Below are positions 2,599 to 62,045 of a stretch of 64,000 nucleotides of DNA, piece after piece. The DNA lies in the NCBI GenBank assembly GCA_009829735.1, contig CM020619.1, positions 12,515,777 through 12,579,776 on the forward strand. Direction: 5' to 3'. Under the pieces are notes generated by a model that worked only from the letters and a program-made list of their open reading frames with translations, searched no databases and was not told where the DNA came from. The position numbers and the translations under genes are program-made. Origin of the DNA: Pyropia yezoensis. Its lineage: Eukaryota > Rhodophyta > Bangiophyceae > Bangiales > Bangiaceae. The first letter of the stretch is position 1. Each line of letters starts with the position of its first letter.

Positions 2599-3137
2599 TG
2601 TGGGAGATTGGGCCGGAATTCGGTCCCAATACTTTGGAGATTCGGGTCAAGTGGACCTGACCGGAAGTCGAAATTCACCCGACCCACGATGGTGAAACTT
2701 CTGACCTCTGGACGGAAATTCGACTAGGACTTCCGACATACTAGAGCAGGGTAATGCTGCTGGTATTTGTTTCTTGGGATTTTTGCACGGGAGCCAGACG
2801 GATTTCTACGCATTGAGTGCTTTGCATGTGGAGTGATATGATTGGTTTGTTTGAGGGTTCATTTTCTGAGTGTTTTGAGGGGTTGCGTGAGCGTGTGAGG
2901 AGGGTTGATAAGGAGGGACAGCAAGGCGGGGAGGGCCAACCTTGGCTGGCCAAGCAAGAAAACACCGTCTGGCTCCGACACATCTTGTTCGTGCCTTGGT
3001 GAGCTGACCCGTTCACCACACGCAAGTTCCGTGTTCGGCTGTGTGGAGGTGCTTGCTTCCGGTGTCCCAAGTTGGGATATCGGCAATACTCCTCTTCCTT
3101 CCCTGACTCGGGGTTGGTGGTTGGGAGTACTGCTACA
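2599..3137 (+). repeat. 5' LTR of chromovirus 1 (539 bp)
   Basis: It begins TGTGGGAGATTGG and ends GGGAGTACTGCTACA, with the TG...CA termini expected of an LTR. It carries CGGTCCCAAT and GATTCGGG near its start and CTTCCTTCCCTGAC near its end. These bases distinguish it from the 3' LTR and allow the parentage of the solo LTR to be read. Confidence 0.96.
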
Positions 3138-3139
3138 GT

Positions 3140-3156: not shown

Positions 3157-3454
3157 AGAGGATATCGACTTTGGTACCTCCCTTGACCGGAGACGGGACC
3201 AAGTTGGCCCCTCTCCCCCTTCGGCACCGAGACTTCCGGTGACATGATCGACTCGCCTACGTTCCGAGCGTTCGCTGGGTGACGAGGTTGGCCACCGTGA
3301 GTCTTGGTGGGAGACCCGGAGTTTTGGGAAACCTCACCGCCTTCCTTGAGGTAGGTGGAGGGGTGGAACGTGCTCTAGGAACTCCCTAGCTGACGATCCC
3401 CGACTCTGGACACCGTTTGGTCGTTTTGGTTGACTCCACGTGACTCTTGTGGAG

Positions 3455-5218
3455 ATGGCTGGAGAGGGAGACCCCCCCATTGCGCCGAGTGTACCCGGGG
3501 AGGGGGAGCGTAGTCCTCCCCCGACGGGCGGAGTACCACCCAGGCCGGGCAGTGCGGATGTGGTGGGTCCAGAGGTTGGACCCCGACGGCGGTCGGCCAG
3601 GTTCCTTCCCAGGCCGTCCCCGGAAGAGACGGGCGGAGTTCGCCCTTCTCCGGTGGGAGCGCCGAGCCAGCGTCAGGTTCCGGCAACCTCTTCGGGGAGT
3701 GACGACACTCACTTCGGCATGGGACCGCCGACCGGCAGAGGTGACGGGACGGGGAGTTCCGTACCCCGGGTTGGTGGGTCCGCGCCACGACTGGTGTCGG
3801 AAGGACCGGGTGGGAGCTCGAGTCAAGCTCCACCTGGCTCATCCGGTATCGTGGATGACTCGGTGATGACTGCCATCGCACAAGTCGGGCGAGAGGAGGT
3901 GGGGAAGGCGTTGAAAGGGAACACCCCTCCGCCTGAGCAGGCCTCGAGGCGTCAGAAGCGACGGGAGATTCGACGTACTCTCCGTCGTGAGGTGGACTCA
4001 GGGTCTGAGTCCTCTACAAGTGGCAAGTCGGGTGAAGAGGATCTTACCCGACGTGGTCGTGTGACTCACACGGACCGTCTTGGGACTAGAGTCGTCCCAG
4101 GGAAGATAGTGGTGAATAATCCATTGTTCAAGGATGTCTTCGACTGTGAGACATATGGGTTGGTCAACAAGTCGTTGACCTACTCGAATAGTCAGGCCCG
4201 TACCCTGGGCCGGCGCAAGAAACACGTTGCGCAATCCTTCGGGGTCCGTTCAGAATGGGACGGGACACCACCCCTGAAGGTCTTCCAGTTTTTGCGGAAG
4301 TTCGCAAAAGCCTGCGATGACAATGATGTCTCTGAAGCTGAAGCGTTTTTCATGCTTCAGGACTTCACCAAGGAGCCACTCCGCTCCGAGGTGATGAACG
4401 TCATGCCAAGTCGGCATGGTGGGAACCCGGGTGAGGCGACCTCCTACCTGGAGTTGGTTAATTGGATCCTTCGTCTTCACGCAGACGAGGCTTCCTTGGC
4501 TGCGCAGGTTGAAGAGTTCAACCGCGCCACCCAGAGTAAGGGTGAAGAGGAACGGGAGTTCGCTGAACGACTCCGTCAGCTGAACGTCCTCTGTGGATTC
4601 CTATATCCCCAAGGAGTCATTAAGGGACGCTTTGTGGAGGGTGTCCACCGAGCAGCTCGAGCGACTGTGCGAGAGCATAATACTCCGACCATGACTCTGG
4701 CGGAGTTGGCACGCATCGCCCAGACTAAGGGTGATGAGTACCGCTGGCTCGTGTCTGAGCAGCGGAAGGAACGAGAGAAAGAAGCTAAGGGAGTGGAAGC
4801 AAGTCGCTTCCGCAGAACTGCAAGGGTGCCTTCCTACACGCGGACGTACCCTGCAGTACCTTCGTCCTCAACTCGAGATACGGAAGGTATGGTGGCCGCT
4901 ATCCCTGATAAGTCACAGGGAAAAGCGGGGCCATCGGCGCCAATGAGTGATCGGCCGTGTTGGCAGTGTTCCAAGTCGGGACACTGGGCAGCCCAATGCC
5001 CCACTCTGGACGTTCGACTGAGAGCCCTGTTGGCTCGTATTGGGAAGCTCGGTATTCCGAGGACTGATTCGGATACCCGGCCGCGCACCACACGGGTGAC
5101 GGCCATGACTCAACCTAAGTCAGAGGATGAGTCCACGCTTGAGAAGGGGGAAACCTCTTCCCCCAGCTCAAGTGGCAAGGATACTCCATCATCCGAGTCG
5201 GATGAGGGAAACGCCTAG
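3455..5218 (+). CDS. gag: Gag polyprotein, chromovirus 1
   Basis: This encodes the structural protein (587 aa) that forms the retrotransposon particle and packages its RNA. I chose the ATG at 3455; the open frame reaches back to a GTG at 3440, which is not a normal eukaryotic start. The first 200 residues are rich in Pro, Gly, Ser and Arg. A capsid-like region around residues 219-400 includes PLKVFQFLRKFAKACDDNDVSEAEAFF, split here only by my reading of its order. A CCHC zinc knuckle, CWQCSKSGHWAAQCP (C-x2-C-x4-H-x4-C), lies near residues 502-515 and should bind RNA. The frame ends DEGNA-TAG, and its last codons contain the slippery heptamer that feeds ribosomes into pol. The same capsid motif (FLRRF.KACNDNDVSE) is present in the Gag at 59414-61174. 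I see no lesion. Confidence 0.9.
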   Translation: MAGEGDPPIAPSVPGEGERSPPPTGGVPPRPGSADVVGPEVGPRRRSARFLPRPSPEETGGVRPSPVGAPSQRQVPATSSGSDDTHFGMGPPTGRGDGTGSSVPRVGGSAPRLVSEGPGGSSSQAPPGSSGIVDDSVMTAIAQVGREEVGKALKGNTPPPEQASRRQKRREIRRTLRREVDSGSESSTSGKSGEEDLTRRGRVTHTDRLGTRVVPGKIVVNNPLFKDVFDCETYGLVNKSLTYSNSQARTLGRRKKHVAQSFGVRSEWDGTPPLKVFQFLRKFAKACDDNDVSEAEAFFMLQDFTKEPLRSEVMNVMPSRHGGNPGEATSYLELVNWILRLHADEASLAAQVEEFNRATQSKGEEEREFAERLRQLNVLCGFLYPQGVIKGRFVEGVHRAARATVREHNTPTMTLAELARIAQTKGDEYRWLVSEQRKEREKEAKGVEASRFRRTARVPSYTRTYPAVPSSSTRDTEGMVAAIPDKSQGKAGPSAPMSDRPCWQCSKSGHWAAQCPTLDVRLRALLARIGKLGIPRTDSDTRPRTTRVTAMTQPKSEDESTLEKGETSSPSSSGKDTPSSESDEGNA

Positions 5219-5254: not shown

Positions 5255-8200
5255 TAATGAAGCGGGTTGCTTCACACTCACCGACCCATGGGAGAGTGAA
5301 GGTCCTGACTCGACCTCGAGGGGTGAGGCCTAGAGACAACGTCCCTCCTCAGAAGCACGACCCGAGTCGGATTGTGTCAGTGCTGGTAGGGAGTAACTAC
5401 CAGGTCGCAGCTCGACTCTGGCTGCAGGATGGATATGAGTTTACCTCTCGTGTCATAGTCGACACAGGCTCTGCTGTCTCTCTCATTAGGCAAGACTTAT
5501 TGCCAGAGGGGACGGATGTGAGTCCCGCCGGCTCACCCGAGTGGCGTATGTTTGATGTCAATGGGGGACTCCTCCCCATTGTTGGGTCTATTGCATTGAC
5601 TGTTTGCATTGGGTTCTACCAGACGCAGGTGAACTTTGGAGTAGTCTCCAATATGTCAGTCCCCGTACTCCTGGGAACTGACTATCTGGACCTCCATGTC
5701 CCGGCCGTCTGTGGACCGGAAGGGGTAATCCGAATGCGTAATGGAGAGACTGTCCCCATATTGCGTAAAGGGAGGACTGTTTCCCCTACGACTCATCAAC
5801 CTAGGGAAAACTCTCCCAAGGGTGGAGGCTCTACGACCCATGTACGAGTATGTAAGGGTACGGTAGTCCCGCCCCGATCAAGGACCTTTGTGCGAGTATG
5901 CACACGGTTTCGAGGGAATGGACTCGTTTCCCCCGTGGACCGAGTCTATCATACTCACCAAGTGCAAGTTGCATGGGGCCCCATGACTTGTGGGGATGAC
6001 CAAACTTGGTGGGTGGAGGTCCTCAACACGTCGGAGGAACCTCGACGACTCCCCGGAGGCATGAAGATTGCGTCGATCTCTACCTTTGAGGGGAATGTCG
6101 TTGCTGTGACTCAACAGCAATGGAAGGATATTGGAACGGCAGGCTCTGCCGACCAATCGAGTTCATCGACGGCTAAGTCGCCGACGGTACATCGGGAGAA
6201 CATCCCGGAGTGTTTACATGGACGACTGGATGAGTTAATCCAGAAGCATCACAAGTTGTGGAATGGTGACCTTGGGCTCATCAAGGCCACCGAACACAGA
6301 ATCGTGTTGAAGCCAGGGGCTAGGCCAGTTCTCCTGAGTCCCTACCGTATGGGACCAGACTCACGGGAACTCACCCGAGAGCAGGTCCAACGGATGCAAG
6401 ACATGGGTGTCATTGAGCCTTGCTCAAGTGAGTGGGCCAGTCCCATAGTCTTGGTGCCCAAGTCAGACGGCACGATGCGGTTCTGCATTGATTATCGTAA
6501 GCTAAACGAGCGGACGGTAAGGGATAGTTACCCCTTACCCCGTATGGACGATTGCCTCGACTCACTTGGTGAGGCACAGTACTTTTCCACGTTGGACTGC
6601 AACGCGGGGTACTGGCAGATACCCGTCCGCAAGGAGGACAGACACTTGACCACCTTCACGTGTCACTGTGGAGTTTATCAGTGTACACGGCTCCCTTTCG
6701 GGCTTTGCAATGCACCTGCGACTTTCCAGCGTGCTATTGACTTGATACTTGCCGGAGTCAAGTGGCAGATCGCCCTGGTGTATCTGGACGATATCATTGT
6801 GTTCTCCGGGACTGCCGAAGAACACCTGTCCCACTTGGACAGAGTGTTTACATTGTTGGGTGAAGCAGGAGTAACACTCAAACCTACGAAGTGTCACCTC
6901 TTTAGTAATGAGGTGGAGTACCTCGGCCATATAGTCCGGCCAGGTCGCATTCTGGTCGATGAGAAGAACCTCATGGCCATCCGTCGGGCGAAGTTTCCCC
7001 AGACGCAGACACAACTCAGGAGCTTCCTGGGTATGTGTAACGTATACAGACGCTTTGTGGCGAACTATGCCAAAGTGTCTGCACCGTTGAACCACTTGGT
7101 AAGTTCCAAGATGACCAAGCGCTTGGATGCTCCCAAACCCCCGGAGCAAGAAGCGTTTGATAGGTTGCGAGAGCTCCTCTGCAACCCACCGGTGTTAGCG
7201 ATCCCCTGACCGGGGGCTCACTACATCGTTGATGTGGACGCAAGTCACGACCAACTCGGTTGTTGCTTACTCCAACAACAGCCTTCGGGGGAGTATTTAC
7301 CCGTTGGCTATTTTAGCAAAGGACTCTCACCGGCCCAGAAGAACTATTCTGTGACGGAGGTAGAGGGCCTTGGCGTAGTATGGGCAGTCTCCATGCTACG
7401 GCCATACATCGAAGGAAGGAAGTTCCTCATTCGATGTGACCACAAGGCTCTGAAGTGGATACTCACCACTACAGCCTGTACGAATAACCGACTCAATCGA
7501 TGGCGACTCTGCCTCGCTGAGTTCGATTATGACGTTGAGTATCGGCCAGGCCCGAAGCATGCGGTTGCGGACGCGTTGTCTCGCATACCGACGGATGGGA
7601 AAGACTCTTCCCCCATCCCCGAGGAACTCCCTCATGTGGCAGTGACCACTCGCTCCGGAACTGTCCTCGACCCGAGGATGCCTGGCATGGCCAAGCTATT
7701 ACCCGTGTCTCTGGATGAGTTTGTCCAGGCACAGGAGAGCGACAAACTTTGTCGACGACTCAGGAAGGAGCTCGACCAGGCTCAACCGACTCGGTTCTTC
7801 CTGAATGACAACGGCATACTCTGCCGTAAGGGATATACCCAGGGGGACAAGCAAGTCGTCGTCCCCAAGGAGTTACGCAAGAGTATCCTCCAACGGGAGC
7901 ACTCCTCACCGTTGGGTGGACACCCAGGGTCTACGAGGATGTATCAGACCCTACGCAAGAAGTACTATTGGCCATCACTCGTGGCTGATGTGTACGGGTA
8001 TGTAGCCGCATGCGCGACTTGCGCAAAGAATAGACTCATGGAGTCCCGGCAGACTTCTTCCATGAGACTCTTTCCTGCAACAGAGCCGTTTGCAGCGATA
8101 GCAGTGGACTTACTCGGTCCACTACCACGAACACCTGAAGGATATGAGTACCTTCTGGTGATGTGTGATCGCTTTACTAAGCTCCCACGGGTATCCCCAC

Positions 8201-9246
8201 TCAAGGATATCACAGCTGTGGACGTTCTGAGTGAGTTACTCGACGTCTGGGTTGCCAGTTATGGCATCCCCGACTCTATCCTTTCGGATAACGGACCACA
8301 GTTTGCGTCCGTCCTGTATCAGGGAGTCATGAAGATGTTGGGGGTGCAGACGAATTTCGCAACCCCTTACCACCCCCAGACTAAAGGGCAGGTGGAACGA
8401 TTCAACAGGACTCTAGTGCGCCAGTTGCGTCACTATGTCCATGACCATGTAGTCACATGGGCTCGTTATGCGTCACTACTCGTGACAGAATACAACTCCC
8501 AGGTACACAGTAGTACGGGAGAGGCACCGTTTGCCTTCGTCTGCCCCCGACGACTTCCGTCAGTAGCTGTGGAGCGTCTCACCCAGACAGAGGGTGAGAC
8601 TTCGACTCAAACACCGAGTCAGGCGAAAGCCTCCCTACTCCAGAGACTGGAGGAGATGATACCCCTTGTCCGGGCTACTATGGAGAAGGCCCAAGCTCGT
8701 TACAAGAGGTACTTCGATGTCCGAGTCAGACATCGTCGCGATCCGTTCCGAGTTGGAGATTGGATTTATGTCAACTCCCACGACAATAAGGGAGGGAAAT
8801 TGGTCTTCAAAACTCTGGGACCATATCACAACCTTAAGACGGATGGACGGCGGTTAACCTTCGAGAGTGATGATGGTATCCGGACGATAAATGGGAATCA
8901 CGCGACTCGCGCACCCGAACCCCCAGAGGGAGATCCCGCTTGGGAAAGGGCCTTGCAAGCATGGAAAGTCCCATCCTTGCCGACCTCCTCCAATAAACCG
9001 TTGGAGGCGGTGTTCGACAAGTTTGTCGGACACGGATACGATGAGTCGGGGCGACTCATGCTCCGAGTCAGGTGGTTCGGGTATGGACCAACTTCCGACA
9101 CATGGGAGTTTGTAGAGGACCTACCAGTAGAGAAGGTCCGTAGATACTGCCAGGCTTCGGGCATATCTGTACGCCGACGTAGCACTCGTACGTCGGGGGA
9201 TGAAGTCCCTGCTCCAAGTCAGAGCAGAGCGGCAAGCCAACCATGA
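5206..9246 (+). pseudogene. pol: Pol polyprotein, chromovirus 1, one in-frame TGA
   Basis: Pol would be made by -1 frameshift from gag; the first ATG in frame is at 5257. The domains run in Ty3/gypsy order. First is an aspartic protease with VDTGSAVSLI (about nt 5455-5490). Next is reverse transcriptase with FCIDYRKLN, LPFGLCNAPATFQR and the YLDD active site (6781-6792). Then comes RNase H starting DVDASHDQLG (from 7231). Integrase follows, with an H-H-C-C finger (HPGSTRMYQ...CATCAKNR) and DDE residues in AVDLLG, SDNGPQ and QVERFNRT. A C-terminal chromodomain (FVGHGYD...VRWFGYGPTSDTWEF, about 9013-9115) completes it. The reading frame is otherwise open but is cut by TGA at 7207-7209, between RT and RNase H, in the sequence VLAIP-stop-PGAHY. 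The frame continues directly after it, so this is a point nonsense mutation (for example CGA to TGA), a sequencing error or readthrough. Confidence 0.9.
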
Positions 9247-9374
9247 GTACAAACGCATACCATGGTTCTTCAAAGATTCTCTACTAACAAAGCCGACTAT
9301 GGCACAATACAAAACGAGAAGAACACACACCATTCTTCTCGCCAAGAAAAGAACAAGTCGTTCAAACGCTGACT

Positions 9375-11291
9375 CTAGCGTTCCATACGCCCACCCCCAC
9401 CACTATAGGGACCGGCCGACCACGAACCCCCAGGGTCGTAGGCCGGTAGCGGAGGGGCGTAACCCACTCGGGAGGGCCCCGGAGAGGAAGCACTGGGAGG
9501 GGCCCGCCGACTCGCGGACCCATCCCCGTCGTAAGAAAGATGTCCGGAGGTACTCCCTCCGTGACGCGGAAGCTGCTGCTGAGTCGACAGCAGCCGTTGG
9601 ACAAACTCGTGTCCAACCGCGAGGCGAGTGACCTCAGCTGCCAATGACTGTCGCGCCGTGGCTGAGTCGCCCGACGCGAGGAAGTGACTGACACGCCGGG
9701 TGACCCAAGCCAACGTGTCAAGGGAGGCCACGAGTGCGGCCTCCACCGTGGCGTCATACATGATGGCTCCCAAGTTGGGAAGCATCTCGCCGACGCCACG
9801 CGCAATCGGCATCGGGACCGGAGTTCGGACCCGTAGCGAACCCAACGCCATGTCGGGGAAGGGTTCTAGGAACTGGAAGGGTGGAGCCTGAGTCGGCTCC
9901 ACACCCCCCGAGGTCGGAGTCGCGACCCGCGGGGAAGACGTCGGCACAGCTCGCCCGCGGCTTCGAGGGGCTCCTCGATGAGCACCACGACGAGTCGTCG
10001 CCGATGACGTCGCCCACCCAGAGCCAGGGGGCGACGTAGAGGGAGTAACCCCCTCCGCGTAGGGAAGGGAAGGGTCCCCCAACCCCTCACGCAGGAGCAG
10101 CTGCCCCTGCACCAGAGTATGAGTGACATGGACGAACTCCCGGGGTGGCTCACTCTCCAACCCCGGCTCTGAACGCTTGTTGCGGCGGAGGAAGGGGTCC
10201 AGCTGCGCCCAATCGAGTCGATTGTGCAGGGTGACCATACCCTTGAGGAGGATCGGAGCCAGGTCCCCCGCGCCCAAGGCTAACCAGTGGAAGCCAAGGG
10301 TTTCCATACCCTCCACCAGAGCCGGTGGGAGGTGCCACAGGTAACCCCGATGAACTACATCGGAGTACCAGCCCCGAGCCACCACGACCACCCAGTGCGT
10401 GGCGAGGTAGGCGAAGACCCGGTTGCCCTTTGAGCTGGAGCGTAGCACGGAGCCAAAGTAGGCAACGAGGAGGGGGATCCGAGCCGGAAACCCACAAGGT
10501 ACCTCCACTGTCTCCCACCACCCTGGGAGAAGAGGGTACTGGTGCTCACGCTCCTCCAGAGGTACTTGGGTGAACTCCACCCGCGACCCGTGGATGAGGA
10601 AGCCCGAGGAGCCCCGGAGTCGGAACTCCTCTCGCACCACACCGTGTTGGGCTTGGGCGTCCTCTCCGCCCAGGTAGGGACGAGGAAGGGCACACCACTC
10701 GGTAGACACCACCGCGTGGGTGTCGTCGATCTCCACGTCGCCCGACCCCATGGCGAGGGAGGTTGACAACGCCTGGACTTCAGGCGCGTCCGCCAGGCAG
10801 AGTAGCGCTGGTTGGTCGCAGACCACCCCATCAGGTAGAGTCACCTGGTTAGGATACCGACGAGTCCGGCGGTACCATACGTCGGTCCGCCGTGGCTCGG
10901 GGATGATCAAGTAGACATCCTTGAGCTTGCAGTCGGGAAGCTCCCCGACTGACTTGGGAGGCGCCCAGGCTCGGGGCCCCATAGGAGGACGGGGCCGCGG
11001 CGGAAGCAGCAGCCGCGACTCAGGAAGGCGGAGGATGGGAGTCACATCCCCTTCCGCCACCGGGTTGGAAGACCCATCCCCCGGTGGGACCACAGCCGAG
11101 GGGGCAGTAGGAGGTGATGGGGCGGGGACGGTTGAGGCGGCCGCCTCCGACCCTCGCCCGGGACGAGTCGTCTCCATGGCCGACCCCCGGCTGAGAGACT
11201 CCTCAGTCCCGAGGGCCTCCTCTCCCGCCCGTCGCTTGTCCGACAGAGACGTCGGGGACGGGGACAAAGGCCGACTTGGCTCACCCGCCAT
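9375..11291 (-). CDS. Antisense accessory protein of chromovirus 1, unknown function
   Basis: This 638-codon frame lies on the strand opposite to gag-pol, converging on pol with a gap of 128 bp and ending before the 3' LTR. The ATG at 11291 sits in a good context (AAGATGG). I do not recognise a named domain. The N-terminal 110 residues are Ser/Pro/Gly-rich. A central folded-looking region follows, with hydrophobic stretches (IPLLVAYFGSVL, FAYLATHWVVVVARGWY). A Ser/Pro/Arg linker comes next, and then a second ordered segment (LGAIMYDATVEAALVASLDTL) before a low-complexity tail. The antisense frame of the second chromovirus (53063-55180) has the same placement and similar order, including VEVPCGF..RIP....YF here against VEIPVGF..SIP....YF there. 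Antisense genes are known in some plant gypsy elements (Grande, Retand), but I see no similarity I can claim. It has no clear signal peptide. Confidence 0.75.
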   Translation of the reverse strand: MAGEPSRPLSPSPTSLSDKRRAGEEALGTEESLSRGSAMETTRPGRGSEAAASTVPAPSPPTAPSAVVPPGDGSSNPVAEGDVTPILRLPESRLLLPPRPRPPMGPRAWAPPKSVGELPDCKLKDVYLIIPEPRRTDVWYRRTRRYPNQVTLPDGVVCDQPALLCLADAPEVQALSTSLAMGSGDVEIDDTHAVVSTEWCALPRPYLGGEDAQAQHGVVREEFRLRGSSGFLIHGSRVEFTQVPLEEREHQYPLLPGWWETVEVPCGFPARIPLLVAYFGSVLRSSSKGNRVFAYLATHWVVVVARGWYSDVVHRGYLWHLPPALVEGMETLGFHWLALGAGDLAPILLKGMVTLHNRLDWAQLDPFLRRNKRSEPGLESEPPREFVHVTHTLVQGQLLLREGLGDPSLPYAEGVTPSTSPPGSGWATSSATTRRGAHRGAPRSRGRAVPTSSPRVATPTSGGVEPTQAPPFQFLEPFPDMALGSLRVRTPVPMPIARGVGEMLPNLGAIMYDATVEAALVASLDTLAWVTRRVSHFLASGDSATARQSLAAEVTRLAVGHEFVQRLLSTQQQLPRHGGSTSGHLSYDGDGSASRRAPPSASSPGPSRVGYAPPLPAYDPGGSWSAGPYSGGGGRMER

Positions 11292-12304: not shown

Positions 12305-12843
12305 TGTGGGAGATTGGGCCGGAATTCGGTACCAATACTTTGGAGATTTGGGTCAAGTGGACCTGACCGGAAGTCGAAATTCACCCGACCCACGATGGTG
12401 AAACTTCTGACCTCTGGACGGAAATTCGACTAGGACTTCCGACATACTAGAGCAGGGTAATGCTGCTGGTATTTGTTTCTTGGGATTTTTGCACGGGAGC
12501 CAGACGGATTTCTACGCATTGAGTGCTTTGCATGTGGAGTGATATGATTGGTTTGTTTGAGGGTTCATTTTCTGAGTGTTTTGAGGGGTTGCGTGAGCGT
12601 GTGAGGAGGGTTGATAAGGAGGGACAGCAAGGCGGGGAGGGCCAACCTTGGCTGGCCAAGCAAGAAAACACCGTCTGGCTCCGACACATCTTGTTCGTGC
12701 CTTGGTGAGCTGACCCGTTCACCACACGCAAGTTCCGTGTTCGGCTGTGTGGAGGTGCTTGCTTCCGGTGTCCCAAGTTGGGATATCGGCAATACTCCTC
12801 TTCCTTTCCTGACTCGGGGTTGGTGGTTGGGAGTACTGCTACA
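12305..12843 (+). repeat. 3' LTR of chromovirus 1 (539 bp)
   Basis: It is the same length as the 5' LTR, with three differences that I can see: CGGTACCAAT and GATTTGGG near the start, and CTTCCTTTCCTGAC near the end. It is followed by the target duplication ATCAG (12844-12848). Confidence 0.96.
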
Positions 12844-43119: not shown

Positions 43120-43127
43120 CTTTTATC
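43120..43127 (-). promoter_or_regulatory. TATA-like box of the right-arm gene
   Basis: GATAAAAG on the minus strand lies about 120 bases upstream of the ATG at 43000, at the same position as CATAAAGG in the paralogue. Confidence 0.55.
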
Positions 43128-52306: not shown

Positions 52307-52877
52307 TGTGGTATAAAACTCGATCCTCTCAGACACGTGTCTATATCCCTCGGGGGAAAGGGACAGGTAACATAGAAAGGGGAACTACGAGAAAGGTATG
52401 CCTGTTGCCTCACGTGCCTGCTCGCAGAGCAAACAGATACGCACGGTAGTGCACACGGGGAAGAGGAAAGCAAACGCGCAGTTGTCTTTTTCCTGAGGGC
52501 GCGGGCCAAGGGCGCCTCGCTGTCCCTCTTAACGTGCATCTGGGGGAACCTCGGCACGTTAGCCAGGTAGCCCCCCCATAACCCCGAGTGGCCCCGACCC
52601 GAGTCTAACCTCGTCAGGTCGGGGGCCACTATCACTACTAATTCTATTCCCACCCACTAATCTCACACTCAAATTCTCTCAAATCAAGTCCCTCACAAGT
52701 ATGCAACAACCCATCAGAAATCCCTCTCTCACGTGTGGATAGCGTAGTCCACCGCATCCCAGTGCCGGGCACGGGCCACGGCCGCCAACCATCACCACAC
52801 GGTGGGCGTGTTCTGGCACCTGGTGCCCTCTGGTTGTAGTCCCGGGTCGGCGCTAAGTCGGGGCCAGGGATGCTACA
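52307..52877 (-). repeat. 3' LTR of chromovirus 2 (571 bp)
   Basis: On the plus strand it begins TGTGGTATAAAACTCG and ends CAGGGATGCTACA. It differs from the other LTR at AGAAAGG/AGAATGG, GTTAGCC/GTTGGCC and in CAACAACCC..CAGAAAT against CAAAAACCC..CAGCAAT. The plus strand has a TATAAAA motif at its outer edge (52312), pointing toward the antisense gene. Confidence 0.95.
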
Positions 52878-52880
52878 TAG

Positions 52881-52890
52881 CTCCCTCCCT
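52881..52890 (-). other. Polypurine tract of chromovirus 2
   Basis: On the minus strand AGGGAGGGAG lies three bases before the 3' LTR start (TGTAGC). Confidence 0.65.
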
Positions 52891-53062
52891 AGTCCGGCAC
52901 GTCCTCGGGCCGAACCAGGTGCCACCGTGCACAGCCTCGAGCACGTCCACACCGGTGCCGAGGTCGAGCGTCTTCACCCCGGTTACGATCACCTGCTCCG
53001 ATTCTGCCCCCCCCCCATTCTCCTTCACCTTGGCCCTCTCGTTCCCCCGGAGTCTGGACGTC

Positions 53063-55180
53063 ATGTCCAGTTCCGAGATCCAAGCTGGGCCCGTGGTTCC
53101 GGCGGCGAGTGTTGCGGAGGAGAACTCGGGTAGTCGCGCCCCTCTCCTGCCTCCGGTTCCTCGGGTGTCGATGTCGGCGCCGGTCGCCACGGCGGGGACG
53201 GATCGGGTTCCCCCGGCTTCTGTGATGCACCCGGTCGAGACCCCCCCGGTGGGTCTCCCGGAGATGCTTCTTGGGCAGGACCCTCTGGCGGCCCGGCGTT
53301 ACTCCACGGTGGTCGGCAACGCCGGCGCGGCCCAGTGCCACCAGGATTGCTCGGACCTCTGGCGCAAGGAACTCCAGCGCGGGGTCTTGACAGAGATGGA
53401 TAAGGCTCGTCTTCACACGGCGGACCAGATGCGCCTGGCACAAGACCGCTCCCAGAGCTTCTCGGGTTCCTCTTGGGTTGCTCGTCTGGAGGATCTCCCC
53501 TTCGCGCTGGTGCTGGATCTACCCTTGACCGAGCGTCGCGTGTCCGCGTCCGTTCTCCGGTGGCCGGAGGAGGAAGGGTACGTCCACCGGGCGCTCAAGG
53601 TCTGGGACGAGGCGCTCAAGGGGTCGGGGAGCCTGAACTGCGACCCCCGTCCGAGCATGGTCGCTCTGGAGCCGCCTTTCCTGACCCGTAAGTACTCCAA
53701 GTTGTCACCGGCACGGGAGCAGGGTGAGCGACGCGGGCGTCAGCGTGACTTCCTCGTGAGCTGCAACCATCAGGAGTTCTGGAAGCTGGATAAGGCTAAC
53801 CGGGCGGCGTACTACCCCAAGGTCATCCCGCAGCAGCAGGAAGTCGAGATCCCGGTCGGGTTTGCTCCTTCCAGCATCCCCTTCACCTGGTACTTCTTGG
53901 ACGCCTTGACTCAGGCGTCGATCAAGGGCTTCTTCCACTCGATCCCGTACATGATGTACACGTCCGAGATGACAGTCTTGGCGGCCAACCACTGGCTTCA
54001 CGAGGTCTTGGTGCCCAACCGGCTTTGGTTTCTCCTTGACCTCCTGATGGTCTGGATTGTCGACAAGTTGACCGTCGACTTCCTGTGCAGCCAGGACGAA
54101 GAGTACAAGGGGCTCTTCCAGGCGATGATTGACTTCCGGCGTCTGGTGCCGATGCATGACCGGAACTTCTTGAACGCGATTGCCGACCAGAACCGCCCGC
54201 GTCGGGATGGCTTCGGTTGGGCGCAGGTGGTCTACCAGTCTTCTCCGGCCAAGGTGCAGCTGGCGACGCCGCTTCCGGCGTGGCCGCAGCTAGGTAGCTT
54301 TCCTGCCCCGGCCGCCCTTGATCTTCTGCCAGTTGGGCCGCCGGTGCAAGAGTCGGGATGGGCCGCGGCGGTCGGTCAGGCGTCTGCGGCGGCTCCGCTT
54401 CCTCCTGTTGCACCTGTCGCCCCGGTGGCCTCGCCTGAACCGTCGCCGGCGCGTTCACGCCCTGTTCCGGCTGTGCCGGTACTTCAAGCTCCTCCGGCAC
54501 CGCGCCTGTCTGCGGCGAGTCTGGGGGTGACCGTGCGGTCGCCTACCACTCCGGCCGCTCCGCCTCGGACGCCTTCTTCCAACGCCGGCGGCGCTGTGCC
54601 TCCGCTGGAGTTGGGTACTCCGGTTTCGGGGGCCGCTGTGGACCGTCCGGTGGTGTCATCCTCGTGGCGGTTCGAGATTCCGGCGCCGACTCTGCGCCTT
54701 AACCGCTTCCGGGTGCCTGACTGGTACCTGATCCAAGGTGGTCCGACATGCGACCAGTACGACGTCGGTATGATTGAAGACCAGCTGGGTCGTCTTCCGG
54801 TGCAGGTCGAAGGCGTTGGGTCCTCCCTGGTGCTGGGTACTTACGCCAGCGTCTTGAACAACGTGGTCGACCGGGTGTTTGCTTGCGCGGACAGCGGCCA
54901 GATGTCGAACAGCCCGGTGGTTGGCGAACTTCTGGCGACCTTGACGCGGCATGGCTTGGCCCAGCAGTGGTCAGAAACCTTCACTGGCTTCCAGGGGCGC
55001 CGACGGGCATATCTGGATGAGCGGGAGCCCCCGGCAACTACCGGTACTACTCCGATGGCGTCATACCGGGATGCACCGCGTCCACCGCACTACGTCATCC
55101 CGTCTTCCTCCGGTTCCCGTCGTGCAGCGGAGGCAGCGCTGGAGGACACTCCCGCGGCTCAGCGTCCGCGCCGGGAGTAG
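53063..55180 (+). CDS. Antisense accessory protein of chromovirus 2, unknown function
   Basis: This 705-codon frame lies on the strand opposite to gag-pol, converging on pol with a 145-bp gap. The open frame reaches back into the LTR, but the first ATG is at 53063. I recognise no named domain. Its order is a Ser/Pro-rich N-terminus; a helical segment (DCSDLWRKELQRGVLTEMDKAR); LPFALVLDLPLTERRVSASVL; then VEIPVGFAPSSIPFTWYFLDAL, with hydrophobic LWFLLDLLMVWIVDKLTVDF. A long Pro/Ala/Val linker follows, and then a second ordered region (FRVPDWYLIQGGPTCDQYDV to SETFTGFQGRRR) and a short basic end (AAQRPRRE). Position, size and block order match the antisense gene of chromovirus 1 (9375-11291). The frame has no stops over 2.1 kb. 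Confidence 0.75.
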   Translation: MSSSEIQAGPVVPAASVAEENSGSRAPLLPPVPRVSMSAPVATAGTDRVPPASVMHPVETPPVGLPEMLLGQDPLAARRYSTVVGNAGAAQCHQDCSDLWRKELQRGVLTEMDKARLHTADQMRLAQDRSQSFSGSSWVARLEDLPFALVLDLPLTERRVSASVLRWPEEEGYVHRALKVWDEALKGSGSLNCDPRPSMVALEPPFLTRKYSKLSPAREQGERRGRQRDFLVSCNHQEFWKLDKANRAAYYPKVIPQQQEVEIPVGFAPSSIPFTWYFLDALTQASIKGFFHSIPYMMYTSEMTVLAANHWLHEVLVPNRLWFLLDLLMVWIVDKLTVDFLCSQDEEYKGLFQAMIDFRRLVPMHDRNFLNAIADQNRPRRDGFGWAQVVYQSSPAKVQLATPLPAWPQLGSFPAPAALDLLPVGPPVQESGWAAAVGQASAAAPLPPVAPVAPVASPEPSPARSRPVPAVPVLQAPPAPRLSAASLGVTVRSPTTPAAPPRTPSSNAGGAVPPLELGTPVSGAAVDRPVVSSSWRFEIPAPTLRLNRFRVPDWYLIQGGPTCDQYDVGMIEDQLGRLPVQVEGVGSSLVLGTYASVLNNVVDRVFACADSGQMSNSPVVGELLATLTRHGLAQQWSETFTGFQGRRRAYLDEREPPATTGTTPMASYRDAPRPPHYVIPSSSGSRRAAEAALEDTPAAQRPRRE

Positions 55181-55325
55181 TAGTTGGAGGCAAGGAGGGT
55201 GAAGGTCTTGAAAGAAGCGAGGAGGGAAGAGGCGGAGAGAAGGGTTGCCCGAGCGGGTGCTTGTTTTCCTTGATTGTTCCATGCTTGTATTGCGTGTTCT
55301 CCTTGATATACCCGTTCCCTTCTTC

Positions 55326-58300
55326 TCAATCCTCTTGTTCCGCATCCGTTGCGGATGAACTCGGCTCGTTCCGAGGGTCTTGGTTGGCCCCATCCTCTTG
55401 GTCCTCCTCCGAGTCCGACTCCAGAATCTTGCCGGCTCTGGCCACTGGAGTGCCCTCTATCCCGTTCCGTCGCGTGTAGGCACAGACATCCGCGATGGGT
55501 AGCCGGTTTGAGGGTTCCCAGGTATCATCTGCCGGGTTAAAACCGAACCAGCGTACTCGCAGGTACAGGCGTCCGTCTCTCCAGGCATGGTCCACAAACT
55601 TGACGTAGACATATTCCCGACCTTCTTCTTGGGATAGCCAGGGTACTGCGGCCCGCTTGCGCCGGGTCAAGTCCCGTTGGCTTGGCGGTGGAGCTCGGGT
55701 GACATGGTCGCTGCTCACGCGGTACGGGGAGCCATCCACGTCTAGAAGAAAGGTCCAACCGTCCGTATTCAGGATCTCATAAGGTCCATCCGTCTTCGAG
55801 TCCAGCTTCCCCCGGGTCTTGCTATGGTTGTCCACAAAAACCCAGTCGCCACCACCCAGTTCCTTGTTCTTTTCCCGAACGCCCTTGTCATAGCCCCGCT
55901 TGTATCGCTCCTGGGTCTTCGAGATTGACTCCTTGACTTTTGGGAGCAGGAGCTTCAGTTGTTCCAGGAACTCATCCTTTGCCTTGGGACCTGACTTCAG
56001 TGCAGGCTGGAGACCATCTGGTATTCCTTCCAGGGAGAAGTTGGTCAGCCGCCTTGGGGTGACAAAGTCGAGTGGAGCGACTCCCGTTGTCCGGTGAACT
56101 CGGGAGTTGTAGGCTAGAGTGAGGACAGCCAGGAGCTCGTCCCAGTCTTCTTGGTGCTCCTCCACGTAGTGCCGTAGCATGTCCACTAGGGTCCGGTTGA
56201 ATCGTTCCACCTGGCCGTTCGTTTGCGGGTAGTACGTTGTGGTGTACAAGTTCTTGATGCCCATCAGGTCACAGACTCCTTGGAAGAACAGGGATGCAAA
56301 CTGGGGACCGTTGTCGGTTAAGACGGAGTCTGGAGGGCCGTAGGCAGCTATCCAGTACTCGCAGAAGGCTGACGTGACATCCAGAGCCGTGATGGTCCTC
56401 AGCGGGATTGCTCGAGTGAACTTGGAGAACCGGTCACAAATGATGAGCAGGTATATGTTGCCACTGGATGTTTCAGGTAGGGGCCCCAGGATGTCCATGC
56501 TTAAGCTTGCAAAGGGCTCCGCCGCAGGGAATAGGCGTAGCTTAGAAGTCTTCTTCCTCTGGGACAACCGGTTCCTTGCACAAGAAACACAAGCCTCCAG
56601 GTACTTATGGACGTCACTGGCCATGGTTTCCCAGTAATAGTGTCGTCTCATGGAAGCATACATCCGATTGATACCAGGATGTCCGGCCTGGGGAGACGAG
56701 TGCTCCAGGCGTAGGATGTCAGCTCGTAGGCCCCGGGGTACGTAGACTTGAGTGGCCCCATCGAAGGGTGACACCCGTACTAGGAGTCCGTCCGTAGACT
56801 CGGAGAAACGACTGTTCCGGTTCAGGTCCATTTGGTGGCGAAGCTCCAAGCATTGAGGGTTCGTCAGTTGTGCCTCCAGCATCCGGTGAATGGTCACCGG
56901 TTGATGAGCTTCAGGTGTCTCATACCGGGGAGCGTGCCAGCCACGTCCGACATTCGGGAGGATGAAGCAAGGTATTTCCTCCGGGATGGGACCGGTATCG
57001 GCTGCAGGAGTCTCCAGCCGGGACATGGTGTCGGCGCAGTGGTGCTCACTCCCTGCTCTGGTGCACATCTTGTACTTGAACTCCGAAAGGCGTAGGCGCC
57101 GCCGGGCGACCCTTCCTTGACTGCTGTCCATACATAGCAGCCACCTTAGGCTGGCGTGGTCCGTCCGGATGAGGAACTCTTGTCCTTCAAGATATGGCCG
57201 TAACAGGAAGCAAGCCCAGACGACTGCCAAGCACTCGCGCTCGGTCGTGGAATAGTTCTTCTCAGCTGGAGTCAAGACGCGACTGTAGTAGCCTATCGGG
57301 AGAAAGTGCCCATCAGGTTGCTGCTGGAGTAGTGAGCACCCCACCTGGACGCCACAGGCATCCGTCTCCAGAACAAACTGGCCCTCCCGCTTGGGTAACG
57401 CCAGTACTGGAGTGGTGGTCAGGCGCTTCTTGAGCTCTTCGAAGGCCGCGGTCTGCTTCTCGTCGAACACCGGGAGTTGTGCGGGAAGCTTCTTGCTGGT
57501 CAGCTTGGTCAGTGGCCGGGCAATCAGAGCATAGTCCCGTACGAACCGGCGATAGACGTTGCACATACCCAGGAAGCTCCTGAGTTCCGTCTGAGTTTTG
57601 GGTTGCCGTGCATGCCGGAGGGCCTTGATGTTCTTCTCATTGACTCGGAGCTCCCCCGGACTCAGCACATGCCCCAGATACTCCACCTCAGTCTCAAACA
57701 GGTGGCACTTCTCGGCCTGGAGGGTAACTCCAGCCTTGGACAGGAGGGCCAGGACCTCCCGAAGGTGCTCCAGGTGTTCCGCTGGGGTCTTGGAGAAAAC
57801 GATAATGTCGTCCAGGTAGACCACACATGTTCTCCACCTTAGCCCGGAAAGGATGATGTCGATGGCTCTTTGGAAGGTGGCCGGAGCATTGGTGAGACCA
57901 AAAGGAAGGCGCTTGCACCGGAATAGTCCCAGGTGGCACGTGAAGGTGGTCTTGTCCTTGTCCTCGTCAGCCAGAGGGATCTGCCAGTAACCGGCATTAC
58001 AATCCAGCGTCGAGAAGAGGGTGGCATCACCAAGAAAGTCGAGGCAATCATCCATCCGGGGTATTGGGTATACGTCCTTGACTGTCATCTCGTTCAGGCG
58101 CCGGTAGTCACCGCAGAAACGGAAGTGACCGCCGGTTTTCGGGACGACTACCACCGGGAAAGCCCACTCGCCATCAGACGGCTCGATAACATCCATCTCG
58201 AGCTTCTTGTTAACCTGCTTCTCAATCTCATCCCGGCGATGAGGTCCGGCCCGATATGGTTGCATGTGCACTGGCCTAGCTTCCGGCTTGAGTTGAATCC

Positions 58301-59426
58301 GGTGTAGAGTGGCGTCCATCTTGCCCAGCTCTCCCGACCACAGGTGCCGATATTCCTGGAGAAGCTTCTCCAGTGCCTCCTTCAAGTCGGGAGGGACATT
58401 TTCTTGCTTGACCTTCGGCATCCCGGGTGGTGCTTGTTCGGGTTTCGGAGTAGCGCTGCGAGCCTGCTCTTGTTTCGGAGGTACGTCTAAGGCCGTCAAG
58501 TTGGATGCCAGTTCTTGTTGCAGGTTCAGGAGGTCTTCCTTGCTCATAGCACGGGCGGATCCCCGGTAAGGCTCTGCTGTACCAACTCGGGTGCCCTTGG
58601 CGAGGGTTATTGGCTTCCGGCTCACGTTGACGATTAGCACCGAGAACGGGGTGTGCCTTTCTACCTTCTTGTGATGTCCGTGGGCCAAGTATAACCGGTG
58701 TTTCGCCAGAAATTCCTTACGTCCGTAGATCAGGCATTGACCTGCAATCCGGGTCGTTACTTGAACCTTGGTCTCCGAGCGAGGAGGTAAGAGCACCGGT
58801 TTGAAGAGAGTCAAGGTAGAGGGTGGGATGCGTTCTCTCTTGCTCTTGGCTACACGAACCTTAGCGTCCAGATGCTCCAATACCGGTGACACAAACCCAT
58901 GGTTGAACTGGACCTTCCCTTCTCCGGGTAGGATGCTCTTGACATGCTGCTTCTGGAAGTCCCAGCCTAGGATGACGGGGACTGATAGGGTCTTGACTAC
59001 TAGAAAGGGAAAAAGCATTGGTTCATTGTTGACATAGATGGCGACAGGAAGACGGCCAAGCGGTCGTAGGGTTTGACCCGAAGCGTCGACGATATGGGTC
59101 CGGGTAGGCGCTCTCCAGGCATGTCGAAGCCAGCCCGGAGGTAACAGGTTCTCAGTGATGACGCTTGGTCCGGCTCCCGTGTCAACCACCGGCGTAACAG
59201 CTTGGGGGAGGCTATCCCCCACACGCATACGGGCATTAATCTTGAGGTTTTCTTTACGCAGGACGAGCAATGTCCCCTTGAACAAACAGGGTGTCCAGGT
59301 GGCTACCGGTTGAGCGGGTAACTGCCGTCCTTTCTCCCGGTACGCAAGGGGAGAACAGGTAGAAGTACCCTGCCGTTGGAGGTTCGGGAAGACACTTGGG
59401 GAGAGCGCCTGCCCTACTCGTTTCCC
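55326..59426 (-). CDS. pol: Pol polyprotein, chromovirus 2, intact
   Basis: This is an open frame in the -1 phase relative to gag, running from the slippery heptamer (59426) to 55326. There is no ATG before the protease, so expression needs frameshifting. The domains in order are protease with VVDTGAGPSVI (DTG at 59183-59175); RT with FRFCGDYRRLN, LPFGLTNAPATFQR and YLDD (57818-57807); and RNase H (ETDACGVQVGCSLLQQQ). Next is integrase, with an H-H-C-C finger (HPGINRMYASM...CVSCARNR) and DDE residues in SMDILG, TDNGPQ and QVERFNRT. A chromodomain (VKFVDHAW..RVRWFGFNPADDTWEP) and an acidic tail (SDSEEDQED) complete it. It reverse-transcribes and integrates the element; the chromodomain probably targets particular chromatin. 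No lesion is seen. Confidence 0.93.
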   Translation of the reverse strand, partial: GKRVGQALSPSVFPNLQRQGTSTCSPLAYREKGRQLPAQPVATWTPCLFKGTLLVLRKENLKINARMRVGDSLPQAVTPVVDTGAGPSVITENLLPPGWLRHAWRAPTRTHIVDASGQTLRPLGRLPVAIYVNNEPMLFPFLVVKTLSVPVILGWDFQKQHVKSILPGEGKVQFNHGFVSPVLEHLDAKVRVAKSKRERIPPSTLTLFKPVLLPPRSETKVQVTTRIAGQCLIYGRKEFLAKHRLYLAHGHHKKVERHTPFSVLIVNVSRKPITLAKGTRVGTAEPYRGSARAMSKEDLLNLQQELASNLTALDVPPKQEQARSATPKPEQAPPGMPKVKQENVPPDLKEALEKLLQEYRHLWSGELGKMDATLHRIQLKPEARPVHMQPYRAGPHRRDEIEKQVNKKLEMDVIEPSDGEWAFPVVVVPKTGGHFRFCGDYRRLNEMTVKDVYPIPRMDDCLDFLGDATLFSTLDCNAGYWQIPLADEDKDKTTFTCHLGLFRCKRLPFGLTNAPATFQRAIDIILSGLRWRTCVVYLDDIIVFSKTPAEHLEHLREVLALLSKAGVTLQAEKCHLFETEVEYLGHVLSPGELRVNEKNIKALRHARQPKTQTELRSFLGMCNVYRRFVRDYALIARPLTKLTSKKLPAQLPVFDEKQTAAFEELKKRLTTTPVLALPKREGQFVLETDACGVQVGCSLLQQQPDGHFLPIGYYSRVLTPAEKNYSTTERECLAVVWACFLLRPYLEGQEFLIRTDHASLRWLLCMDSSQGRVARRRLRLSEFKYKMCTRAGSEHHCADTMSRLETPAADTGPIPEEIPCFILPNVGRGWHAPRYETPEAHQPVTIHRMLEAQLTNPQCLELRHQMDLNRNSRFSESTDGLLVRVSPFDGATQVYVPRGLRADILRLEHSSPQAGHPGINRMYASMRRHYYWETMASDVHKYLEACVSCARNRLSQRKKTSKLRLFPAAEPFASLSMDILGPLPETSSGNIYLLIICDRFSKFTRAIPLRTITALDVTSAFCEYWIAAYGPPDSVLTDNGPQFASLFFQGVCDLMGIKNLYTTTYYPQTNGQVERFNRTLVDMLRHYVEEHQEDWDELLAVLTLAYNSRVHRTTGVAPLDFVTPRRLTNFSLEGIPDGLQPALKSGPKAKDEFLEQLKLLLPKVKESISKTQERYKRGYDKGVREKNKELGGGDWVFVDNHSKTRGKLDSKTDGPYEILNTDGWTFLLDVDGSPYRVSSDHVTRAPPPSQRDLTRRKRAAVPWLSQEEGREYVYVKFVDHAWRDGRLYLRVRWFGFNPADDTWEPSNRLPIADVCAYTRRNGIEGTPVARAGKILESDSEEDQEDGANQDPRNEPSSSATDAEQED
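59390..59426 (-). promoter_or_regulatory. Programmed -1 frameshift signal, chromovirus 2
   Basis: The heptamer G GGA AAC (59426-59420, minus strand) is in the gag frame and the gag stop TAG lies at 59416-59414. A nine-base spacer leads to a 7-bp stem with two G-U pairs: AGGCGCT (59410-59404) pairs with AGTGTCT (59396-59390) around a seven-base loop. The pol frame is -1 and stays open from the heptamer onward. The heptamer and its distance to the stop are identical to those of chromovirus 1. Confidence 0.82.
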
Positions 59427-61174
59427 GGGTCCGAGGAGTCCTTAGAGGTTTCGGTCTCCAGGTCGAAGTCCGTAGGAGCTTCCCTTGCCAGAGCCTCCGT
59501 GATGCTCTGTAAGGTTGCCACTCGGATTGCATGTACCTGTGCCTTGTCCATCTTGGAGGGTGCCCGCCGGTCAGCCCAGTTGACCGCCTTTGCAAACACC
59601 AGTCCTTGACGCTTGAGTTTCTCCTGGAGGTCCTTGGGAATGGTCGGGCACTGGTAGGACATGTGATCCTCCTTCTGGCACAGCCAACAAGACCGGAACC
59701 GCTGGTTCTTGACTTGCTTGTGGGCGACCAGGGATGGTTGCTCCTTAGAAACGAAGCCGCCCCACTTGTCCCCTGACCCCATGGGTGAGGCCTTGCCAAC
59801 TGCGAGTACCGGTACAGGGCTATCACCTCCCTTATACTTGTCGGGTCCGGGACGAACTCGCGACAACGGCTTGGGAGTTGATACCATGGGAGCTTGGAGG
59901 GCCCTGGCTTGCCGGTACTTGCCCTGGGTATAGGCCATCAACTGCTGGAAGGTATGTTCTTGATGTTCCTGGTTGTAGTTCTCCGCATCCACATGAAGAT
60001 ATTCAGGAAGCCCTTCCGAGAAGATCATCTTGAGCCTGTCCTCAGGGTAAACGTTTCCACAAGCATCGCTCATCTCCCGGACACGACGGGCGAACGCCTC
60101 TGGAGTCTCTTGTCTTTCCATGGTTGCCCGGTTCAGCCTGCCGACTGCTTTACTCAGAGAGTCCGCGTCAGCGTAGTTGGACAGGAGCCAGTTGACCGCC
60201 TCCGGATAACTCGCGACGGTACGTCCGACAATGTGTCCGGCAGAGTCTGGTAGAACCTGTGCAAACCGCTGTTCCGCTTCTCCGGTCATGAAGTTAACCA
60301 GGAGGTAGAGAGCCTTGCCCTCGGACACATCGTTGTCATTGCATGCCTTGACAAACCGGCGCAGGAAGGCAAAGATAAGCGCCGGTCTCTTCCCGGAAAA
60401 CTTAGGATGTCCCCCGAAGCTCGGCTGCATTCGCCGGTTCAGGGACGCCATCTTCTTGGCCATCTTCCGGGTGTAACCTTGGTCTTGGTTCTCCAGCCGG
60501 TAGTTACCCCAATACGTGACCTTGTTCAGGGTGGCATCTCCCACTTGGTGGGCAGGGAAGTCAAACTCGACTAGCCTGCGCCGGGTGGGACCGGGAGATG
60601 CATCCCAATCATATCCCTCCTCAGAGCTGGAGGAACTGGTCTCGCTGGTGCTAGAGCGACGGCGACGACGCCGACGCCTACGGCTGCTCCGGTTACCGGT
60701 CTTGGAGCTCCCCGCCCCATAGGATGCAAGGGGAGGAAAAGCTTGGCCGGTCCCAGGAGTCGAGGTCTCAGGGAGACCCGTAGAACCAGTCACAACGGTG
60801 CCTCTGGCATCGCTAGTGCCCACAGGAAGAGGTGTATACACCCAGCTGCCATGTGTGGGTCCAGGAGTAAACACACCAGGGGCTATCCCTGGAGGTTGAG
60901 GAGTAGAACCGACAGGAGGGAGACGTCTGCTGCGAGCGGACTCAAACGCCGTTGACCCCGGGGTGGCTCCCACAGGAGGAACAGCCGGAGGAACGGGAGC
61001 AGCTGGTGCTTGGCCGCCTGTGGACTCCAGTCCGCTACCGGATGTCACACCCAGGTCTGCTTCACCCGTAGGGAGAACGCCGGGTTGGGCACCGTCCCCC
61101 GCGGTGACCAGGGATGCGTCAAGGGACGCGGGGTCTACCCCTTCGGGCACCGTCGTGCCAGGGGGGGTAGCCAT
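59414..61174 (-). CDS. gag: Gag polyprotein, chromovirus 2
   Basis: This encodes a 586-aa structural protein. I chose the ATG at 61174 (ACATGGC), because the frame upstream begins only at a GTG. A Pro/Gly/Thr-rich N-terminal third is followed by an Arg/Ser run (RRRRRRRRSSTSETSSSSSE). A capsid-like region comes next (ALIFAFLRRFVKACNDNDVSEGKALYLL, read as two adjacent blocks; RLNRATMERQETPEAFARRV). A CCHC knuckle, CWLCQKEDHMSYQCP (C-x2-C-x4-H-x4-C), follows. The frame ends SDPGNE-TAG, with the slippery heptamer in the last codons. The length is within one residue of the Gag of chromovirus 1. Its role is particle assembly and RNA packaging. No lesion is seen. Confidence 0.9.
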   Translation of the reverse strand: MATPPGTTVPEGVDPASLDASLVTAGDGAQPGVLPTGEADLGVTSGSGLESTGGQAPAAPVPPAVPPVGATPGSTAFESARSRRLPPVGSTPQPPGIAPGVFTPGPTHGSWVYTPLPVGTSDARGTVVTGSTGLPETSTPGTGQAFPPLASYGAGSSKTGNRSSRRRRRRRRRSSTSETSSSSSEEGYDWDASPGPTRRRLVEFDFPAHQVGDATLNKVTYWGNYRLENQDQGYTRKMAKKMASLNRRMQPSFGGHPKFSGKRPALIFAFLRRFVKACNDNDVSEGKALYLLVNFMTGEAEQRFAQVLPDSAGHIVGRTVASYPEAVNWLLSNYADADSLSKAVGRLNRATMERQETPEAFARRVREMSDACGNVYPEDRLKMIFSEGLPEYLHVDAENYNQEHQEHTFQQLMAYTQGKYRQARALQAPMVSTPKPLSRVRPGPDKYKGGDSPVPVLAVGKASPMGSGDKWGGFVSKEQPSLVAHKQVKNQRFRSCWLCQKEDHMSYQCPTIPKDLQEKLKRQGLVFAKAVNWADRRAPSKMDKAQVHAIRVATLQSITEALAREAPTDFDLETETSKDSSDPGNE

Positions 61175-61365
61175 GTTGGTCTCTTGACAACCACAGTCCA
61201 GTTGCCTGCGTGTCCAAAGATCGCCAGACCACAAGAGAGGGGTTGGAGAGCCAGGAATGGGATTCCCGTGAACGGGTGCAAATAATTCCCAAACCACCGA
61301 AAAAGACAGAACAGGAACAACCCAACCGTTGCTCCCAAATGTCTCTTCTCAAACACTCCAATCAT

Positions 61366-61382
61366 CCCCTGCTGCTCCACCA
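61366..61382 (-). other. Primer-binding site of chromovirus 2
   Basis: On the minus strand TGGTGGAGCAGCAGGGG starts four bases after the 5' LTR. It matches the site of chromovirus 1 at 15 of 17 bases, so both probably use the same or sister tRNA primers. Confidence 0.7.
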
Positions 61383-61386
61383 AATA

Positions 61387-61957
61387 TGTGGTATAAAACT
61401 CGATCCTCTCAGACACGTGTCTATATCCCTCGGGGGAAAGGGACAGGTAACATAGAAAGGGGAACTACGAGAATGGTATGCCTGTTGCCTCACGTGCCTG
61501 CTCGCAGAGCAAACAGATACGCACGGTAGTGCACACGGGGAAGAGGAAAGCAAACGCGCAGTTGTCTTTTTCCTGAGGGCGCGGGCCAAGGGCGCCTCGC
61601 TGTCCCTCTTAACGTGCATCTGGGGGAACCTCGGCACGTTGGCCAGGTAGCCCCCCCATAACCCCGAGTGGCCCCGACCCGAGTCTAACCTCGTCAGGTC
61701 GGGGGCCACTATCACTACTAATTCTATTCCCACCCACTAATCTCACACTCAAATTCTCTCAAATCAAGTCCCTCACAAGTATGCAAAAACCCATCAGCAA
61801 TCCCTCTCTCACGTGTGGATAGCGTAGTCCACCGCATCCCAGTGCCGGGCACGGGCCACGGCCGCCAACCATCACCACACGGTGGGCGTGTTCTGGCACC
61901 TGGTGCCCTCTGGTTGTAGTCCCGGGTCGGCGCTAAGTCGGGGCCAGGGATGCTACA
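61387..61957 (-). repeat. 5' LTR of chromovirus 2 (571 bp)
   Basis: Read on the minus strand it begins TGTAGCATCCC and ends TTTTATACCACA. It is nearly identical to 52307-52877. Confidence 0.95.
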
Positions 61958-62045
61958 GCGCCATGCAAGGGGCGGCAGGCCACCAGCCTGACGCGTTCCT
62001 CCCCCTGCATTTGGGTCCATATTCCCTAAGTTTGGGATAGTTAGC

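Follow-up and report, generated by a model that had tools for sequence, protein, structure and literature searches.

Accessory genes on the strand opposite to gag-pol have already been described in retrotransposons of plants, fungi and one green alga. The aORF-3R genes of plant Ty3/gypsy elements (Grande gene23, RIRE2, Wallabi, Gran3, Retand ORF4 and PvRetro13) and of the fungal element Boty show the same arrangement as the genes considered here. The element REM1 of Chlamydomonas reinhardtii (ORF3p) is likewise a chromovirus with a reverse-frame gene, which reportedly lies downstream of the polyprotein and is said to be regulatory. The REM1 reverse frame is described as carrying an integrase GPY/F module and a chromodomain (PMC2774666). 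In plant elements, antisense genes in this slot are presented as relatively frequent and of unknown function (PMC7264820). The antisense product of Grande is reported to be nuclear and to have its own promoter, whereas that of Retand contains a TRP28 domain with predicted DNA binding (PMC7264820; PMC11963269). The deltaretrovirus antisense genes HBZ and APH-2 are alike in arrangement only; for HTLV, an antisense promoter in the 3' LTR is reported (PMC7264820; PMC11963269).

The window, i.e. the whole stretch of 64,000 nucleotides of Pyropia yezoensis DNA that was analysed, contains two elements, chromovirus 1 and chromovirus 2, and their features are collected in Table 1. Both show the chromovirus (Ty3/gypsy) layout, with gag, the order PR-RT-RH-IN and a chromodomain at the C-terminus of the integrase. 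The chromodomain matches reached 19.7 and 17.8 bits against a Pfam cut-off of 25.1 bits, and the protease (RVP) and CCHC matches also remained below the cut-off, so that these chromovirus features are weakly matched. In both elements an antisense frame occupies the slot between pol and the 3' LTR and is convergent with gag-pol, which is the aORF-3R position. The preliminary description had reported a frame of 705 codons at 145 bp from pol in chromovirus 2 and a gap of 128 bp in chromovirus 1, and these coordinates and gaps were reproduced. The stop-to-stop opening of the chromovirus 2 frame lies within the 3' LTR, upstream of the first ATG.

Table 1. Positions of the features of the two chromoviruses in the window
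Feature	Positions	Strand	Remarks
Chromovirus 1 5' LTR	2599..3137	+	539 bp
Chromovirus 1 gag	3440..5218	+	
Chromovirus 1 pol	5257..9246	+	one in-frame stop
Gap from pol to antisense stop, chromovirus 1	9247..9374	.	128 bp
Chromovirus 1 antisense accessory gene	9375..11291	-	638 codons
Chromovirus 1 conserved core	10227..10691	-	about residues 201-355
Chromovirus 1 3' LTR	12305..12843	+	99.4% identity with 5' LTR
Chromovirus 2 3' LTR	52307..52877	-	571 bp, TGT...ACA; 99.3% identity with 5' LTR
Polypurine-tract-like purine-rich stretch adjoining chromovirus 2 3' LTR	52878..52892	-	partly by eye
Chromovirus 2 antisense accessory gene	53063..55180	+	705 codons from first ATG; frame open from 52748
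Chromovirus 2 conserved core with E(V/I)PxGF motif	53663..54139	+	residues 201-359; common to chromovirus 1 protein
Most hydrophobic 19 residues of chromovirus 2 protein, inside LW.L region	54005..54061	+	Kyte-Doolittle 1.78
Convergent gap from antisense stop to pol end, chromovirus 2	55181..55325	.	145 bp
Chromovirus 2 pol (RVT, RNase H, H2C2, rve)	55326..59285	-	frame open to 59441
Chromovirus 2 gag	59414..61297	-	CCHC knuckle match under Pfam cut-off
Chromovirus 2 5' LTR	61387..61957	-	571 bp

At the position of the primer-binding site beside the 5' LTR (3138-3165 and 61360-61386), the sequences of the two elements are similar, with TGGTGGA in common. The 5-bp sequence ATCAG flanks the chromovirus 1 element on both outer sides. 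The outer 5 bp of chromovirus 2 (52302-52306 vs 61958-61962) agree at four of five positions, so that its target-site duplication is imperfect or uncertain. The antisense gene of chromovirus 1 is intact although pol is broken by an in-frame stop.

The antisense proteins of the two elements were matched by BLASTP with an E value of 5e-9 (26% identity over 145 residues), in elements whose pol is 43-44% identical and whose gag shows 30% identity over 328 residues. This bears out the earlier proposal that a homologous convergent gene has been retained at the same site in two divergent elements. When all 36 frame combinations of the two slots were compared, the pair of antisense frames alone stood out (47.4 bits vs 24.6 bits for the next pair), and the best DNA match between the slots had an E value of 0.27. 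A profile without chromovirus-2 members, comprising 14 of the 21 proteins of the chromovirus-1 type or third branch (P0002 and relatives, with P0009, P0012, P0013, P0019, P0022, P0023 and P0024 left out; the branches are described below), gave the chromovirus 2 protein 22.1 bits, compared with 8.3 bits for the best of 4000 shuffles and 7.4 bits for the highest-scoring of the 136 window ORFs that remain, out of 138, without the two antisense frames. A profile of the core (181-400) scored 32.9 bits on the chromovirus 2 protein and its first half (181-290) 25.5 bits, and in neither case did any of 6000 shuffles score as well. The second half, which holds the LW.L stretch, reached 3.8 bits, a score equalled by 27 of 6000 shuffles and weak alone. 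The similarity is collinear, extending over about residues 201-355 in chromovirus 1 and 201-359 in chromovirus 2. On the strength of the frame-specific match together with the profile and shuffle scores, the antisense proteins of the two divergent elements are, as judged by sequence comparison, homologous over a core of about 155 residues.

The profiles of the N-terminus, the N-terminal helix region, the linker and the C-terminus scored no better on the chromovirus 2 protein than on shuffles. Thus, of the alignment that had been drawn by eye, the core with the E(V/I)PxGF motif stands and the LW.L stretch taken by itself is weak, but the Pro-rich linker and the C-terminal block did not hold. 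Profile-level similarity, the lack of which had been named as counting against the family, was detected for the core. A non-circular profile-profile comparison gave a probability of 78.6 and an E value of 1.7e-5.

We consider it rather probable that these frames are real homologous accessory genes of bangialean chromoviruses, convergent between pol and the 3' LTR, and that they encode a nuclear regulator associated with nucleic acid or chromatin. Expression of each gene would probably depend on an antisense transcript whose start lies within or close to the 3' LTR or in the adjoining leader. The protein may then be a nuclear factor, associated with nucleic acid or chromatin, that regulates the element, and the step regulated would be transcription, silencing or integration of the element, as supposed for the plant antisense genes. 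By analogy with those genes, a role as nuclear regulator appears most likely and that of a particle-associated protein comes next. An antisense-oriented TATAAA was found at 52312 inside the chromovirus 2 LTR, and a TATAAA for the antisense gene was not found in chromovirus 1. The ATG of both antisense genes has a purine at -3, and the leaders showed no depletion of upstream ATGs beyond that expected from composition. The protein P0004 shares the chromovirus 1 protein from the ATG onward, its earlier residues matching another window frame, and this beginning of the match at the ATG supports the chromovirus 1 start codon.

The plant gypsy antisense genes, previously offered as the nearest precedent, are a fair one in kind, and REM1, which had not been named, is another. 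Retand, however, belongs to a non-chromovirus lineage of flowering plants according to PMC11963269, whereas the present elements are red-algal chromoviruses. The TRP28 domain (PF04195), which marks the Retand antisense ORFs, was not detected in the 27 members of the present family in hmmscan searches with E up to 10, in which the HMMER filters may hide very weak matches. Unlike in REM1, the chromodomain match of the present elements lies in the sense pol and none was obtained in the antisense protein (Pfam, E up to 1). A separate family whose core is common to elements with this degree of pol divergence would suggest that the arrangement arose more than once, and the alignable core is offered for functional tests. 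LTR elements are stated to be the dominant repeats in the genome of Pyropia yezoensis (PMC7423979), and the antisense gene may therefore be abundant.

The proteins are laid out as a Pro/Ser-rich N-terminus, the core of about 155 residues with E(V/I)PxGF, a Pro-rich linker and a variable C-terminal part. In proteins of the chromovirus-1 type and third branch, the linker has arginine-rich stretches. The most basic 20-residue segment falls in the linker in 8 of the 18 proteins scored, all of them chromovirus-1-type or third branch, and in the chromovirus 2 protein it belongs to the core instead. The net charge of the two antisense proteins is about zero (-1 and -2). This layout, with a Pro-rich N-terminus, a core and a basic stretch, is broadly Gag-like, and the divergence of the antisense proteins is near that of gag. 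A structural or particle-associated product, such as a second Gag-like protein or an assembly factor, is on these grounds the foremost alternative, although we regard it as unlikely. Resemblance to gag itself was absent, since the scored set of 138 window ORFs included both gag frames and its non-antisense members gave at most 7.4 bits. A CCHC pattern was not found in the antisense proteins, and frameshifting cannot tie expression of an antisense gene to the genomic RNA. In addition, the Gag-like layout is drawn from models of low confidence: the mean pLDDT of AlphaFold2 was 38.3 for P0002 (27-row alignment) and 33.2 for the chromovirus 2 protein (16-row alignment), values at which any description of the fold is weak.

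Database comparisons are consistent with the earlier view of an undescribed family. The two antisense proteins matched no Pfam family with E up to 1, and hmmscan of the 27 members with E up to 10 gave one weak match in one member (E 0.14). A PDB sequence search with the profiles A6 and A7 yielded nothing with E up to 10. Searched against the PDB, P0001 had two weak matches to Rieske subunits, with E values of 0.22 and 0.91, in a region rich in Pro and Ala, and these matches, which were taken as composition, are not convincing. No report of this antisense gene in red algae was found in the literature that could be searched, which excludes most subscription papers, and the family appears to be new.

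Three protein searches found 25 relatives (1, then 6, then 23, of which 18 were new), the largest search scoring the 8000 candidates with most shared words. They were sorted into 14 chromovirus-1-type, 6 third-branch (P0014-P0018 and P0020) and 5 chromovirus-2-type proteins, several of them fragments. A maximum likelihood tree built from 18 of the 27 proteins set apart the chromovirus-2 rows and likewise the third-branch rows, each by a branch with full support; the junction of these two groups carried a long-branch warning. Four relatives are gene models of Pyropia vietnamensis, a bangialean red alga, annotated only as "hypothetical protein", and P0021, P0026 and P0027 came from EukProt. The P. 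vietnamensis relatives, together with the G+C content given below, point to a host that is probably bangialean. The third-branch proteins show 34-41% identity to P0002 in the multiple alignment and derive from JGI- and ENA-labelled contigs of 4.0-8.7 kb. No relative was detected in IMG/VR by scans with P0001, P0002, A2 and A6, a collection from which records near the genome of the window may be absent, nor in bacterial and archaeal genomes scanned with profile A6.

A single capture of a host gene by an ancestral chromovirus of Bangiales, and its retention ever since, would also account for a large, unique protein that lacks an IMG/VR relative in all four scans. The 25 relatives, however, carry neither functional names nor Pfam domains, and the organism names among them include no red alga from beyond Bangiales. 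With an organism name on 4 of the 25 relatives and 8000 candidates scored, a distant host gene could be missed by this comparison; capture of this kind is nevertheless improbable in our judgement. A wider scenario is that of a bangialean-wide chromovirus lineage which, already before the divergence of its main branches, had an additional third gene in antisense orientation, with a protein of novel fold that counters host silencing or steers integration and has co-evolved with gag and pol. This scenario is speculative and has a rather low probability.

Independent acquisition of two unrelated accessory genes in one slot, with the similarity being due to chance or convergence, would agree with the lack of similarity in the N-terminus, linker and C-terminus and with a profile-profile probability of only 78.6. 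It is opposed by the core similarity, which is collinear, was not equalled in 6000 shuffles and is confined to the antisense-antisense frame pair, and is slightly less credible still than the capture of a host gene.

Long chance frames come with G+C-rich DNA. The G+C content of the window is about 63% (mean of 32 stretches), that of Bangiales being given as 64-68% (PMC7423979), and 58 frames of at least 200 aa are present in the 64-kb window. Antisense non-coding RNAs are known from retroelements (PMC7264820), and the frames might accordingly be by-products of base composition, the functional item being an antisense RNA acting in silencing or as dsRNA, or nothing at all. The chromovirus 2 frame extends for 766 codons past the LTR, and the longest frame among 1000 simulations had 667, whereas the 665 codons of chromovirus 1 are marginal on length alone (simulated 99th percentile 645, maximum 836). 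With codon usage trained on gag and pol, four of four tests placed the antisense frame nearest to gag-pol among the six frames, and the in-frame codon scores of the antisense genes relative to base composition were slightly under zero (-0.009 to -0.068 bits per codon).

Constraint on the protein was analysed with five of the 20 relatives that are of the chromovirus-1 type or third branch and with three of the five chromovirus-2-type relatives, using 300 neutral runs. Identities were 60% for P0005, 55% for P0010, 49% for P0006 and 38% for P0014; P0004, at 97% identity, was uninformative. Neutral drift down to the identity of each pair introduced on average 11.0 stops for P0005, 12.1 for P0010, 11.5 for P0006 and 14.2 for P0014, with minima over the runs of 3.0, 4.8, 4.6 and 4.0, respectively. 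The openness of the relatives was taken from database proteins, not from stop counts in DNA, and the gene model of P0010 may be spliced. Because the relatives entered the set through a predicted frame or gene model, this stop comparison is biased to openness and is largely a selection effect. The kind of amino acid change is less exposed to that bias. By this measure, the changes were more conservative than in all 300 neutral runs for P0005, P0010 and P0014, i.e. three of the four informative chromovirus-1-type pairs, and P0006, at -0.68, was just inside the neutral range (maximum -0.65). In the chromovirus-2 branch, P0021 and P0026 lean conservative yet stay inside the neutral range, and P0003 was slightly less conservative than neutral (-0.81 vs -0.59). 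Protein-level conservation across the relatives is thus supported, from sequence, for the chromovirus-1 lineage. These conservative changes, the codon usage and a frame-specific similarity without DNA similarity between the elements make it highly improbable that the frames simply reflect a high G+C content.

An envelope-like or membrane protein, suggested by the hydrophobic LW.L stretch of chromovirus 2 (Table 1), is scarcely credible, because the other 17 proteins of at least 300 aa peak at 1.05-1.57 (1.54 in the near-identical P0003), no transmembrane or strongly hydrophobic stretch is conserved among the 18 proteins by the Kyte-Doolittle scale, and the sense orientation and, on the same scale only, the transmembrane segments of env-like genes were not found.

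Near-exact repeats occur at the chromovirus 1 locus: positions 12305-16502 correspond to 17410-21607 and positions 1691-3137 to 16502-17948, both at 99.86% identity. A third copy of the LTR (17410-17948) and the full element each have ATCAG flanks. The pattern resembles a tandem duplication in which one copy of the insertion locus has the full element and the second a solo LTR, or else an effect of assembly. Elsewhere in the window, an inverted pair of 3.7 kb (32383-36117 and 39425-43169) showed 96.8% identity over 3749 bp by BLASTN and 98% over a core of 3532 nt. The pair contains large frames with malectin and TIG (IPT) domains, and a glucose/sorbosone dehydrogenase match was present in one arm.
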